Part shown: piece after piece, positions 4,125 to 9,987 of the stretch
Layout: each line of letters opens with the position of its first letter
How positions within the stretch are numbered: position 1 is the stretch's first letter
Origin: Sphingobacteriaceae bacterium
GTDB lineage: Bacteria; Bacteroidota; Bacteroidia; Sphingobacteriales; Sphingobacteriaceae
Length of the DNA: 64,000 bases
Assembly: GCA_947458875.1 (NCBI GenBank)
Contig: CANGZD010000001.1
Location: 1 to 64,000, forward strand
Reading direction: 5' to 3'
Program-made: the position numbers and the translations under genes
Notes under the pieces: model-generated
What the model was told of the DNA's origin: nothing
Database searches by the model: none
What the model saw: only the letters and a program-made list of their open reading frames with translations

Positions 4125-4202
<78 letters not shown>

Positions 4203-4211
4203 AAATTAAAG

Positions 4212-4236
4212 GCTCACCGAAAGGCGAGCTTTTTTA
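4212..4236 (+). terminator. Intrinsic terminator after tRNA-Ala
   Basis: The hairpin GCTCaCC-GAAA-GGcGAGC (one A/C mismatch, GNRA-type loop) is followed directly by a run of seven T. It lies 10 nt past the tRNA 3' end. Confidence 0.8.
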
Positions 4237-4301
4237 TTTTAATGACATTTTTTTTACATGAACTATTCCGCAGACAAAAATTCCACTTTTATGTTTGCGG
4301 T

Positions 4302-4613
4302 GTGAAAGGGGTTCTAAATCAAATTTTAGCTTGTTTAGTGATCTTCTCTTTTTCAGTTGTTATTTCAGCTGATTACTGGAGAAGTCCCAATTTTGCTTCG
4401 ATTGTGATTCTAGAGATTGAGCCAAAAAAGAGCAGCGAAAAACGTTCTGAATCATCTAAAGAATTAAAGCAAGAGTTCAAACAACCTCTAATTCCACATT
4501 CCCGCAATGCTTACTTCCCGGATTTATTTTCTTCTAAAATGTCTGACTGGTACCTGGAGATTTACTCTAAACCACATCTAAGCAAATCTGATCTCCCGCC
4601 GGAGTTTGCCTGA
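4302..4613 (+). CDS. Small secreted/membrane hypothetical protein
   Basis: I do not recognise a family. The frame is open back into the tRNA, so the start must be internal. A GTG at 4302 gives 103 residues beginning with a good signal peptide or membrane segment (roughly residues 4-23, LNQILACLVIFSFSVVISA). A highly charged Lys/Glu/Ser stretch and a tail rich in Pro and aromatics follow. An ATG at 4242 would add 20 residues in front of the hydrophobic stretch and looks less natural. TATGTTTG at 4290-4297 is a full match to the -7 consensus and lies 4 nt before the GTG, which favours that start. Confidence 0.55.
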   Translation: MKGVLNQILACLVIFSFSVVISADYWRSPNFASIVILEIEPKKSSEKRSESSKELKQEFKQPLIPHSRNAYFPDLFSSKMSDWYLEIYSKPHLSKSDLPPEFA

Positions 4614-4710: not shown

Positions 4711-6366
4711 ATGAATCCAATAAAGCGCCTTTGGGAGCTTATATTACTAGATAAAAAAGAAATAGGTTCAGTCTATTTTTATGCAATATTTAGTGGCTTG
4801 CTTCAGTTAAGTGTTCCTGTGGGTATCCAGGCGATTATCAGCTTTGTACTTGGTGCCTCCATGGTTACTTCCATCTATATTTTGATCTTACTGGTTGTAA
4901 TTGGAGTCTTTTCTGTAGGCTTTATGCAGCTGAACCAAATGAAAATCATCGAAAAAATTCAACAGCGCATTTTTGCCCGTTACGCTTTTGATTTTGCAGA
5001 AAAAGTCCCCCGTTTCGACCTCATTAAAATGGATGGATATTATCTTCCGGAGAAGGTAAATTATTTTTTCGATACGCTGAATGTGCAGAAGGGCCTTTCT
5101 AAATTATTGCTTGATGTGCCTACGGCAAGTATCCAAATTTTATTCGGATTGTTATTGCTTTCACTCTACCATCCGGTTTTCATTGTTTTTGGATTGCTAC
5201 TTATTTTGATTTTATGGTTAATTCTGAAGACTACTGCCAATAGCGGTTTATCTACCAGCTTGAAAGAAAGTACTTACAAATATTCGGTGGTGGCATGGTT
5301 GGAAGAAATGGCAAGAGTGATCAAATCTTTTAAATTCAGTCAAGGATCACACCTCAACCTTGAAAAAACAGATGAGCGTGTGTCGGGTTATTTAAACGCC
5401 CGTACAGACCACTTTAAAGTTTTGCTCTTCCAATATCAGGCTCTTGTAGTTTTTAAAGTGGCCATAACTACGGTGATGTTAACCGCTGGCACTTACCTTT
5501 TACTGAACCAACAACTGAACATTGGGGAGTTTATTGCAGCAGAAATTGTGATCCTTACTGTTATCAGTGCTGTTGAAAAATTAATTGGAAGTTTAGAAAG
5601 TGTGTATGATGTGGTAACCGGCTTAGAAAAACTGGCCATAGTGACCGAAAGCCCGCTGGAAAAAGACGGTGATGTTGACTTAGTTCCACACGGAAAAGGT
5701 TTAGAAGTTCAGTTTAGGGATTTCAGTTTCAGTTATCCTGATGGTAAAAGGGTGCTCAATGATCTGAATTTTAACATTCCTGCCAATAGTATTGTTTGTG
5801 TGAGTACTCAAGCCGGCTCAGGTAAATCAACTTTTTTAAAAGTATTGAGCGGTAATTACTGTGATTTTGAGGGGGGGCTGCTTTTAAATAAACTACCTAT
5901 TAATTCTTACCAATTGGAAAGTTTGAGAACCCAGATTGGGGTGTTCCTTAATCAGCAAGACATATTTATGGGAACGGTTTGGGAAAATATTACCATGGGT
6001 AGGTCTGAAATCAAACAAGAAACGGTGATGGAAATTGCCAATGGCTTAGGGATATCTCGTTTCTTAGATCAACTCTCTAACGGCTTCAAAACCAAACTGG
6101 ATCCGAGTGGTAAAAAAATGTCAAGCACCTTGGCCAAATCTATCTTGTTGCTGAGGGCATTTGCCAATCAGCCCAAATTAATTTTGCTCGAAGACCCATG
6201 GGAAGGTTTAGACACAAGTGTTCAGGAAAGTATCAAGAACTATCTTTTTAACCAGCTGACCAACGCTACCGTAATTGTAACTACAAAAGATGATGATTTT
6301 GCTCGTAAATGTGATGGACAAATAATTTTAACAAATGGTAAAGCAAATTTTGTCACTAAGAAATAA
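4711..6366 (+). CDS. Type I-like ABC exporter with degenerate ATPase
   Basis: Half-transporter of the HlyB/LapB type without an N-terminal C39 peptidase. An exporter membrane domain with about five to six helices (residues 15-300) is followed by a nucleotide-binding domain (about 335-545). It is the first gene of a cassette with an HlyD adaptor (2 nt downstream) and a TolC-like channel. Residues normally needed for ATP hydrolysis are altered: the first Gly of Walker A is Thr366 (TQAGSGKST), the LSGGQ signature reads MSSTL (470-474), the Walker B Asp-Glu pair is reversed to Glu494-Asp495 (ILLEDP), and the H-loop His is Lys526. The frame is intact and the fold is recognisable, so this is not simple decay. 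Whether it hydrolyses ATP is uncertain. Confidence 0.88.
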   Translation: MNPIKRLWELILLDKKEIGSVYFYAIFSGLLQLSVPVGIQAIISFVLGASMVTSIYILILLVVIGVFSVGFMQLNQMKIIEKIQQRIFARYAFDFAEKVPRFDLIKMDGYYLPEKVNYFFDTLNVQKGLSKLLLDVPTASIQILFGLLLLSLYHPVFIVFGLLLILILWLILKTTANSGLSTSLKESTYKYSVVAWLEEMARVIKSFKFSQGSHLNLEKTDERVSGYLNARTDHFKVLLFQYQALVVFKVAITTVMLTAGTYLLLNQQLNIGEFIAAEIVILTVISAVEKLIGSLESVYDVVTGLEKLAIVTESPLEKDGDVDLVPHGKGLEVQFRDFSFSYPDGKRVLNDLNFNIPANSIVCVSTQAGSGKSTFLKVLSGNYCDFEGGLLLNKLPINSYQLESLRTQIGVFLNQQDIFMGTVWENITMGRSEIKQETVMEIANGLGISRFLDQLSNGFKTKLDPSGKKMSSTLAKSILLLRAFANQPKLILLEDPWEGLDTSVQESIKNYLFNQLTNATVIVTTKDDDFARKCDGQIILTNGKANFVTKK

Positions 6367-6368
6367 AT

Positions 6369-7712
6369 ATGAAAAATTCTAAAAAGCAATTTTCATTTAA
6401 ATCGTTTGAACAGATCTATCTGGTGGATCGAAATAGTAATGTAAAGTACTGGTTCTTCGGTATTATGGGGTTCCTACTGATGATTCTCTTATTGCCATGG
6501 ACACAGAATATCAAGGCCAAGGGAGTGCTCACTACTTTGTATCAGGATCAGCGTCCTCAGGATATTCATTCTCCTATTCCGGGTCGTATTGTAAAATGGT
6601 GGGTGAAAGAAGGTGATTATGTTAAAAAGGGAGATACCCTGTTACAGATTTCAGAGATTAAAGAAGATTACCTCGATCCCAGACTAGTAGGACGTACGCA
6701 GGAACAATTGCAGGCCAAGAAAGGATCTATTGATTTTTACGAAGGAAAAATCGTAGCAACTGGTTCTCAAATTGAGGCCTTGCAACAATCGAGAAAATTA
6801 AAACTGGAGCAGTTGAATAACAAACTGATTCAGTTAGATAATAAAATTACTGCAGAATCAGCTGAAATCACGGCTGCAAATAATGAGTTTAAACTAGCAA
6901 AAGATCAATATGAACGTCAGCAATTGATGTTCGAGAAGGATTTAGTTTCCCAAACCCAATTACAACAAAGAAATATTGCATATCAAAATGCACTGGCTAA
7001 GAAAATAATCGCTGAAAATAAATTAGCGCAAACTCAACAAGAAGTGCTCAACACCAAAATTGAAAAAAATAGTGTGGAGCAAGATTATGCGGAGAAAATC
7101 AGTAAAGCTGAAGGTGACCGTTATCAAACCATGAGTCAGGTGGCTACCGGCCAAGGAGAGGTAGCTAAGCTCGAAAATCAATTGAGCAACTATACCATTC
7201 GAAATGGTATGTATATCCTTTTGGCACCCCAAGATGGTCAGATTGTACAAGCCAATAAAGGCGGTATAGGTGAAGTGCTTAAAGAAGGAGAGCGAATTAC
7301 CATTATTGTGCCTCAGGTGAAGAATTACGCCGTTGAAATGTTTGTTCGTCCTGTTGACCTTCCATTGGTCAATGTAGGACAGTCGGTACGTTTCATGTTC
7401 GATGGTTTCCCGGCTATTGTGTTTAGTGGTTGGCCCAATGCCAGTTACGGAACTTTTGGTGCCAAGATTGTAGCCTACGAAAATACCATCAGCCCGAACG
7501 GCTTATTCAGGATTTTGGCAATTGAAGATCCTAAAGAAAAACCATGGCCGCCACAGTTGAAAATAGGCAGTGGTGCCCAAGGGATTGTACTCTTGAAAGA
7601 CGTGCCAATTTGGTACGAATTGTGGCGAAACGTAAATGGATTCCCGCCAGATTTTTATCAGATCAAGGCAGATGTAAACAAGGATGCTGCACCAAGCAAA
7701 ACGAAGAAATAA
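6369..7712 (+). CDS. HlyD-family periplasmic adaptor subunit
   Basis: Membrane-fusion protein bridging the inner-membrane ABC exporter and the outer-membrane channel. There is a single N-terminal helix (about residues 28-46), then a biotinyl-lipoyl-like half (GRIVKWWVKEGDYVKKGDTLLQI). A long coiled coil follows (about 105-270, many Gln/Lys/Glu), then the second lipoyl half (LLAPQDGQIVQANKGGIGEVLKEGERI) and a beta-barrel domain. It starts 2 nt after the ABC gene stop and its stop codon overlaps the TolC start, so the three genes are co-transcribed. Confidence 0.93.
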   Translation: MKNSKKQFSFKSFEQIYLVDRNSNVKYWFFGIMGFLLMILLLPWTQNIKAKGVLTTLYQDQRPQDIHSPIPGRIVKWWVKEGDYVKKGDTLLQISEIKEDYLDPRLVGRTQEQLQAKKGSIDFYEGKIVATGSQIEALQQSRKLKLEQLNNKLIQLDNKITAESAEITAANNEFKLAKDQYERQQLMFEKDLVSQTQLQQRNIAYQNALAKKIIAENKLAQTQQEVLNTKIEKNSVEQDYAEKISKAEGDRYQTMSQVATGQGEVAKLENQLSNYTIRNGMYILLAPQDGQIVQANKGGIGEVLKEGERITIIVPQVKNYAVEMFVRPVDLPLVNVGQSVRFMFDGFPAIVFSGWPNASYGTFGAKIVAYENTISPNGLFRILAIEDPKEKPWPPQLKIGSGAQGIVLLKDVPIWYELWRNVNGFPPDFYQIKADVNKDAAPSKTKK

Positions 7713-9121
7713 TGAAACTTAGGAATTTCCTGTTGATTTTTTTGATTGGTTTTTCTGGGAAGCTTCATGCTCAGGATTCACTTATTTCGCTCAATGCCGA
7801 GCAAGTTTTATCTATTGTTAAAGCATACCATCCGGTAGTCAAGCAAACAGATATCTCTATTGCCAAAAGTAAGGCTGAGATCACACAGGCTCGTGCAGCA
7901 TTCGATCCGATTATCAGTAATTATACTGCCCGAAAAACTTTTAACGGACTCAATTACTACGATTATAATTCACCGCAAGTAAGTATCCCAACTTGGTATG
8001 GAATAGAGATTTATAGCGGCGTAGAAAACTTGAGCGGTAACCGCTTAGACCCCACTGAAACTGTAGGGCAGTCCAGTTACTTGGGTATCAACATTCCATT
8101 AGCCAAAAACTTATTGATTGATAAGCGAAGAGCAGCCCTGAGGCAGTCTAAAATAATGAACACGCTGGCCAAGGTGGAGCAGCAATCAGTGGTCAATAAT
8201 TTATTGATGGAAGCCATGGAAGCCTACTGGCATTGGGTGAAGGCTCATCAAACGCTTACAGTTTTAGAAAATGTGGTGCAGGTAAATGAGAAGCGATTTA
8301 ATTTAGTTAAACAAGCTTATCTTTTAGGGGAGCGACCGGGTATTGATACCGTTGAGGCGCTGGCACAACTTAATAGTTTTAAATTTGAACGAAATCAACG
8401 CTTGCTTAACTTTCAAAATGCGGGATTAGAGCTCTCTGCTTATTTATGGAAGGCAAATGGGGAAGCCTATGTTTTGCCCGAGCAGGTGGTCCCTCAATCT
8501 GGTTGGGAAAGTGAACTCAATATTCAAAATTTTAGCTTGGTGCTAAATGATCTGATGGATGCCGCCGAAAAAAATCATCCCGATTTGAGGCAATATGATT
8601 ATAAAATTGAGTCGCTCATTATTGACAAAAGATTGAAATTTCAGGATTTATTGCCGAAGGTCGATTTGAGCTATAATCACCTGGCCAAAGGTTCGGAATG
8701 GTTCCCGAACAATGGTATCAATAACCTCTTCGAAAATAATTTCCAATATGGTTTAAAAATTGCTATTCCTTTACGTTTTTCGGAGGGTAGGGGAGCATAT
8801 AAGGTAGCTAATTTGAAGTTGCAGGAAACTAGACTCGACCTTAACCAAAGCCGTTTAAAAGTTCAATTAAAAGTACAATCGTACTACAATGAATTTTTAA
8901 ACTTAAAGAATCAAACCAGTTTGCAAAGTGGCAACTTCGCTAATTATCAGCAGTTAGTAGAGGCAGAGGAAACCCGATTTTTCAACGGTGAAAGCTCCAT
9001 GTTTTTGATCAATGCCCGAGAAACTAAAGCACTCGAAGCGCAGGAAAAGTTAATAGAACTAAAGGCCAAATACTTTAAGACCATTTATGCCTTGCAATGG
9101 AGTGCTGGTTTATTGAATTGA
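7712..9121 (+). CDS. TolC-family outer membrane efflux protein
   Basis: Outer-membrane channel of the type I-like secretion cassette. The ATG at 7712 overlaps the HlyD stop (TAATG) and begins a clear signal peptide (MKLRNFLLIFLIGFSGKLHAQ). The open frame extends further upstream only as a shadow inside hlyD. The 469-residue product shows the two alpha-helical hairpin repeats typical of TolC-type proteins, with conserved-looking stretches such as AYHPVVKQTDISIAKSKAEI and NHPDLRQYDYKIE. It closes the operon, and the next gene starts 17 nt later. Confidence 0.92.
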   Translation: MKLRNFLLIFLIGFSGKLHAQDSLISLNAEQVLSIVKAYHPVVKQTDISIAKSKAEITQARAAFDPIISNYTARKTFNGLNYYDYNSPQVSIPTWYGIEIYSGVENLSGNRLDPTETVGQSSYLGINIPLAKNLLIDKRRAALRQSKIMNTLAKVEQQSVVNNLLMEAMEAYWHWVKAHQTLTVLENVVQVNEKRFNLVKQAYLLGERPGIDTVEALAQLNSFKFERNQRLLNFQNAGLELSAYLWKANGEAYVLPEQVVPQSGWESELNIQNFSLVLNDLMDAAEKNHPDLRQYDYKIESLIIDKRLKFQDLLPKVDLSYNHLAKGSEWFPNNGINNLFENNFQYGLKIAIPLRFSEGRGAYKVANLKLQETRLDLNQSRLKVQLKVQSYYNEFLNLKNQTSLQSGNFANYQQLVEAEETRFFNGESSMFLINARETKALEAQEKLIELKAKYFKTIYALQWSAGLLN

Positions 9122-9138: not shown

Positions 9139-9987
9139 TTGAAAACGGACCTTTTTAGGGGCAGGACGGTTCTGATCGCTACCATGCATCAGAAGGAAAA
9201 GGTGATGGCACCCCCTTTAGAAAACGCACTTGGGCTCACATCAAAATTATGCCCAACGCTCAATACCGATTTATTCGGCACTTTTTGTGGAGAACAAATT
9301 CGTACAGAAAGTCCCATCGAAACTGCCAGGGCCAAGTGTTTAAAAGCTTTAGCCATCACTGGACTTGATTTGGCTATAGCAAGCGAAGGCTCGTTTGGTC
9401 CACACCCCTCCCTTTTTTTTACCAATGCCGATGTAGAAACATTGGTCATGATCGATCAACAAAATCAATTGGAATTTGTGGTCACCGAGATTAGTTTGAA
9501 TACTAATTTTAGCTCAAAATCCATTAACAATCTACAAGACTTAAAAGATTTTGCTCAACTTACAGGCTTTCCGGAACATGGATTGATTTTGCGTAGAGCT
9601 GTTGATGCGTTCGAAGATCAACTCAAGGGAATTACAGATGAACAGGTGTTGGAAAGCCACTTTGATCATTTGATGAATTTACATGGACAGGCCTATGTAG
9701 AGACCGATATGCGTGCCATGTTTAATCCCACCCGTATGCAGGTGATTGCTCAAGCGATGAACAAATTAATTGCTTTGCTTGGTAGTGAATGTCCGCAATG
9801 TCAAACCCCCGGCTTTGCGGTATCGGAAGCTATTCCCGGACTTCCTTGCGATTTATGCGGTTTACCTACCCGTTCAATTTTATATCATCGGTTTCTATGT
9901 CAGAAATGTAACTTTGCGGAAAATAAAATATATCCGCATCAGAAGGAGAAAGAAGATCCGATGTATTGTGATTTCTGTAATCCCTGA
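9139..9987 (+). CDS. DUF6671-family protein with C-terminal zinc ribbons
   Basis: The family is recognisable (RGRTVLIATMHQKEKVMAPPLE at the N-terminus) but has no established function that I know of. The C-terminal 60 residues contain four CxxC pairs (CPQC, CDLC, CQKC, CDFC), enough for two zinc-ribbon knuckles. The start is TTG at 9139, because the next in-frame ATG (9184) would remove the conserved LFRGRTVLIAT strand. It sits between the secretion cassette and tsaC, 11 nt before the tsaC ATG, so it may be translationally coupled to tsaC. Confidence 0.8.
   Translation: MKTDLFRGRTVLIATMHQKEKVMAPPLENALGLTSKLCPTLNTDLFGTFCGEQIRTESPIETARAKCLKALAITGLDLAIASEGSFGPHPSLFFTNADVETLVMIDQQNQLEFVVTEISLNTNFSSKSINNLQDLKDFAQLTGFPEHGLILRRAVDAFEDQLKGITDEQVLESHFDHLMNLHGQAYVETDMRAMFNPTRMQVIAQAMNKLIALLGSECPQCQTPGFAVSEAIPGLPCDLCGLPTRSILYHRFLCQKCNFAENKIYPHQKEKEDPMYCDFCNP

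Follow-up and report, generated by a model that had tools for sequence, protein, structure and literature searches.

The locus and its motifs

The window, the whole stretch of 64,000 nucleotides analysed here, carries on its forward strand an open reading frame (4711..6366) that runs unbroken from ATG to TAA and encodes 551 residues, in line with the full-length gene without frameshift reported in the earlier note. The product is a pseudo-ABC exporter half-transporter, in which an elbow helix and a TMD with six TM helices (residues 1 to ~322) are followed by a degenerate NBD (residues ~333-545). Pfam recognizes ABC_tran (1.3e-15), and the match to ABC_membrane is below threshold. Its six-TM exporter TMD, joined to an NBD of the ABC fold, places the protein among the type IV ABC exporters.

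The NBD has neither the LSGGQ signature nor the Walker B DE pair, the H-loop His or the Q-loop Gln that are associated with hydrolysis. All features lie on the forward strand: the signature position reads M470-S-S-T-L474 (6118..6132), the Walker B catalytic pair is reversed to Glu494-Asp495 (L-L-E494-D495-P; 6190..6195), and the H-loop (switch) position holds Lys526 in T-T-K526 (6286..6288). A scripted check of the positions bore out these residues and Thr366, all of which had been named in the earlier note. Its statement that nearly all catalytic motifs are altered can even be extended, since the alignment places Asn414 (5950..5952) at the position of the Q-loop Gln. Only for the Walker A region (T366-Q-A-G-S-G-K372-S-T; 5806..5832) is a refinement needed: the first Gly is indeed replaced by Thr366, but the rest, including Lys372 and Ser373, is unaltered, and the motif reads TxxxxGKS. 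The P-loop Lys372 and Ser373 are conserved family-wide and the change of the first Gly is lineage-specific, with Gly found at that position in 67 of the 69 core relatives. With these motifs, neither ATP site of a homodimer is complete. The other ABC exporters that were checked in the same genome (L002 and L003) are canonical or nearly so.

The gene is followed, on the same strand, by genes for a HlyD-family periplasmic adaptor (6369..7712; HlyD_3 4.2e-15, TIGR01843 2.6e-24) and a TolC-family outer-membrane channel (7712..9121; OEP 6.9e-40). The tight coupling that had been claimed is evident: two bases separate the ABC stop from the HlyD start, and TolC begins at 7712 with an ATG that shares bases with the stop codon of HlyD (TAATG). 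A single operon thus contains the gene set of type I secretion, an ABC protein with a HlyD-type adaptor and TolC. The three genes are adjacent, in this order and on one strand, in 117 of the 125 loci that were fetched; of the eight exceptions, several run into a contig end, and two or three are outgroup loci that have no partners. In 37 loci a gene for a TetR-type regulator lies next to the operon, as judged from neighbour clusters and TetR_N matches. It is the sole recurrent neighbour, and no recurrent substrate-like or secreted-protein neighbour was found among the operon loci. The cargo is probably a small molecule, a lipid or a peptide; the frequent TetR-type neighbour favours a small molecule or lipid over a dedicated protein substrate.

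Some further observations concern the surroundings of the operon. Directly after it in the window lies a gene for a DUF6671 protein (9139-9987; 1.5e-90), which several further loci also encode close to the operon (cluster 6). Upstream, an ORF of 151 residues (4158-4613) has its start within a gene for tRNA-Ala (anticodon ggc; 4126-4202), so that its first residues are tRNA read-through. A homologue occupies the same place in two loci of the same genus (L148 and L149), and the product may be a small membrane protein. In a 102-kb Riemerella record labelled as a plasmid (NZ_CP081938.1; L197) the operon lies among murB, fabG, thymidine kinase and rsmI, and the record looks like a chromosome fragment.

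The AF2 models (pLDDT 72 for the full-length protein and 69 for a relative that lacks the NBD) are monomeric, of moderate confidence and built from 7-8 sequences. They show a type IV exporter fold in which the TM helices and, where present, the NBD are preserved, and Foldseek matched them to TM287/288, PCAT1, ComA, HlyB and MsbA. Searched against the PDB, a profile of the TMD gave no matches other than ComA and PCAT1. The best NCBIfam match was LssB (7e-47), although its 160 bits do not reach the subfamily cut-off of 693; PrtD and HlyB also remained far below theirs. In profile, fold and the operon with HlyD and TolC the family therefore resembles the type I secretion and PCAT exporters LssB/LapB, HlyB, ComA and PCAT1. 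Those systems are ATP-driven and have canonical NBDs, whereas here only the P-loop is left or the NBD is gone altogether. The pseudo-ABC protein would be the inner-membrane subunit of a TolC-dependent exporter that derives from an ABC exporter of the type I secretion or PCAT-like kind.

Graded motif loss and selection across the family

Of 395 genomes that sample the Bacteroidota, 97 have an orthologue, 96 of them in a single copy. Within the genus of the window the orthologue occurs in two of the five other genomes and is absent from three, and the operon is therefore accessory in that genus. Named members are WP_004920602.1 of Riemerella anatipestifer and WP_309940528.1 of Aureibacter tunicatorum, both annotated as 'ABC transporter ATP-binding protein', although in the latter even Walker A is gone.

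A census of the motifs covered 69 full-length core relatives, 21 outgroup proteins from other classes of the phylum and seven canonical proteins. An LSGGQ-type signature is found in none of the core relatives, the Walker B D-E pair in a single one (against a reversed E-D in 32/69) and the H-loop His likewise in one. The Walker A motif GxxxxGK[S/T] is kept in 63 and the P-loop Lys in 67 of the 69, and the motif is absent from some members (L110 and the Aureibacter protein). The outgroup is intermediate, in that Walker A (21/21), Walker B DE (20/21) and often the H-loop His (17/21) are retained and the signature is degenerate in all (LSGGQ 0/21). As the canonical paralogues score six or seven out of seven on every motif in the same alignment, the losses are not an alignment artefact. 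Judged from these sequences, the shared losses are far beyond chance, since they recur in 69 core relatives with a mean pairwise NBD identity of only ~32%; the substitutions themselves vary freely between relatives. Close homologues with canonical motifs, which for the earlier note would have marked this copy as merely decaying, were sought and not found. Rather, the motif losses are common to the core relatives, and they stand beside the same tightly packed HlyD and TolC genes.

The outgroup proteins (L111-L132) have an N-terminal extension of ~150-240 residues, in many cases with a His-rich linker that leads into the TMD. A Pfam search of this extension gave no match; it is possibly a degenerate C39-like domain. 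Some members from the Bacteroidia (L100 and L102-L106, L104 included; 719-748 residues) retain such an extension as well.

Compared with its nearest relative (97% identity), the gene as a whole has a dN/dS of 0.035, and its NBD one of 0.046. Among the core proteins, the TMD surpasses the NBD in conservation in each of the 2346 pairs (mean identities 49% and 32%), whereas the opposite holds for 97.4% of the pairs among 13 canonical paralogues (NBD 62%, TMD 38%). On these identities, selection is shifted to the membrane domain. Moreover, a number of charged residues in or at the membrane are near-invariant: E81 (TM2), K/R249 (TM5) and E278, E289 and K290 (TM6), together with H154 and H234, where the helix limits were taken from the AF2 models of moderate confidence. 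They are common to the core, the NBD-less proteins and the outgroup, and absent or different in the canonical paralogues. In the window these include Lys249 (5455..5457, forward strand), a position that is basic in all three groups and not in the canonical paralogues, and Glu278, Glu289 and Lys290 (5542..5580, forward strand), which are near-invariant across the whole family.

A clade without NBD

A search of 301 genomes of Sphingobacteriaceae with an NBD-less member as the query returned ~70 matches, as counted from the match table, that end after the TMD (334-373 residues), alongside ~60 full-length proteins. In all 30 tabulated NBD-less loci the HlyD and TolC genes follow, with HlyD overlapping or directly following the stop codon of the TMD. 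In the tree, the NBD-less proteins fall into one clade (support 0.999), nested in the family and sister to the full-length L104. The number of matches, the retained operon and the single supported clade all indicate that the NBD-less form is old and stable, and it is presumably functional. Its occurrence in both the family of the window and Spirosoma-type genomes suggests that it may have spread over families by transfer.

Multiple independent losses of the NBD are rejected, given the single clade. Sequencing errors and frameshifts are likewise rejected as the origin of the short form, since ~70 matches end at the same place and, in the fetched loci, the HlyD gene either overlaps the stop codon of the TMD or lies right behind it. 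An NBD that had been split off and encoded elsewhere was not found in the flanks of the 30 loci, nor in the NBD-less genomes when these were searched with the NBD of L104. The matches in that search, at no more than 104 bits, were for the most part canonical exporters of full length and generic NBDs, and the search discriminates weakly, since the NBD of the window protein itself reaches 108 bits. The cytosolic side of the TMD is retained: 22 of 26 conserved cytosolic-loop residues are kept, P100, E114, N117, R118, F119, Q126 and K127 being invariant even in this clade, and the AF2 model preserves the predicted coupling-helix loop segments.

Source of energy and significance

On the basis of its motifs, a homodimer of the window protein is very probably unable to hydrolyse ATP at a normal rate. 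The earlier reading of an export device that has given up ATP hydrolysis thus receives strong support, as far as sequences can provide it: the losses are common to the core, the gene is under purifying selection, and the NBD has been dropped in a clade that keeps the TMD, HlyD and TolC. The other reading offered at the time, a pairing with another ATPase, found no support. Neither a coupled ATPase gene nor a complementary canonical half-transporter gene is present in the operon, and the family copy is almost always the only one in the genome. Moreover, a heterodimer would also lack a complete site, because the sites of the partner would face a dead signature and the own sites have no catalytic residues in Walker B and the H-loop, so that a mixed site is never fully canonical. 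The heterodimeric exporters TM287/288, TmrAB and BmrCD likewise have a non-canonical Walker B, H-loop or signature in one site, but they keep one consensus site per dimer, whereas this subunit would provide none in any dimer.

The existence of the NBD-less clade implies that the energy comes from elsewhere or is not needed. The explanation that we favour, and to which we give an even chance, is a tripartite exporter with TolC in which the ABC subunit binds ATP without hydrolysing it and draws its power from another source, likeliest an ion gradient. The substrate would pass from the TMD cavity via HlyD to TolC. The chances are balanced that the remaining NBD still binds ATP and serves as a structural or regulatory lid. 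That passage is driven by an ion or proton gradient via K/R249, E278 and E289/K290, which would make the protein a secondary-active transporter derived from an ABC exporter, is somewhat less than probable. The case for it is made by the conserved membrane charges together with the precedents of LmrA-MD, MsbA-MD and SbmA. LmrA-MD and MsbA-MD transport on ion gradients without NBDs, for which LmrA needs E314 in TM6 (PMC4979069, PMC6155054), but these were engineered in the laboratory, whereas the loss described here is natural, clade-wide and set in a tripartite system. SbmA is a proton-driven transporter for which descent from an ABC TMD has been proposed (PMC13316013). The SbmA/BacA group (SLiPTs) shares an ABC-type TMD without NBD and membrane carboxylates (PMC13316013), although the window protein itself has an NBD and only the NBD-less clade matches in that respect. 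The near-invariant E278 and E289 in TM6 are candidates for a counterpart of the glutamate ladder that goes with proton drive. The SLiPTs, however, import peptides, have two extra TM helices, have lost the coupling helices and lack a HlyD/TolC operon. The present family presumably exports, has six TM helices, keeps the elbow helix and the cytosolic loops, and mostly retains a dead NBD; neither the window protein nor the NBD-less members gave a Pfam match to SbmA/BacA. Against coupling to a gradient it counts that the same charges occur in the outgroup with its better NBDs; the charges may instead bind the substrate or form a gate.

According to the main rival, the TMD is driven in trans by a separate ABC ATPase, either a canonical half-exporter or a free NBD, that would bind to the conserved cytosolic loops. 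Shared, promiscuous ATPases exist elsewhere, and the loop residues stay invariant in the NBD-less clade, which, unlike SbmA, therefore has room for a cytosolic partner. Yet a canonical ABC ORF (547-590 residues) was present in the fetched flanks of only three of the 30 NBD-less loci, each time outside the operon, and the weakly discriminating search with the L104 NBD brought up no dedicated candidate. Taken together with the incomplete mixed dimer of the full-length members described above, this makes drive in trans unlikely. Equally improbable, in our estimate, is a non-transporting scaffold or gated passive conduit, in which the TMD dimer anchors HlyD and TolC and the substrate exits downhill or is periplasmic, like the substrates handled by the tripartite MacAB-TolC (PMC7943197). 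It would account for the dispensable NBD and for the conservation being strongest in the TMD and in the linkage to HlyD and TolC, but the dense pattern of near-invariant charges in and near the membrane exceeds the needs of a passive anchor, and the full exporter fold appears from the models to be retained. A low-rate exporter that hydrolyses ATP slowly with non-canonical residues, for instance with E494 as the base, would explain the retained P-loop Lys and the purifying selection on the NBD; it is nevertheless very unlikely, considering that signature, Q-loop, H-loop and Walker B order are lost together, that the substitutions vary freely, and that some members lack Walker A and a whole clade the NBD. 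Finally, the small genome (1.74 Mb in 43 contigs) and the patchy occurrence in the genus might suggest a decaying pseudogene in a shrinking genome, but the low dN/dS and the family-wide motif loss refute this, and the frame and operon are intact.

A literature search retrieved no description of the family; subscription papers fell mostly outside its coverage, so an earlier report is possible. The sequences support a non-hydrolysing device well; we take it for a type I or PCAT-type exporter that turned into a pseudo-ATPase and ended in the loss of its NBD. ATP hydrolysis is what defines ABC exporters. Many proteins of the Bacteroidota that RefSeq labels 'ABC transporter ATP-binding protein' probably hydrolyse no ATP. 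We tentatively propose a stepwise conversion to a secondary-active TolC-dependent transporter, in which the signature was lost first, then Walker B and the switch His and finally the NBD, and in which the membrane charges that were already present would have taken over the energy coupling. If true, SbmA/BacA would have a counterpart on the export side that arose independently and of which the intermediates are still alive. The case for stand-alone ion-coupled exporter TMDs rests largely on the engineered truncations of LmrA and MsbA and on the importer SbmA; a widespread natural series of partial, dead and absent NBDs, accompanied by HlyD and TolC, makes the question directly testable.
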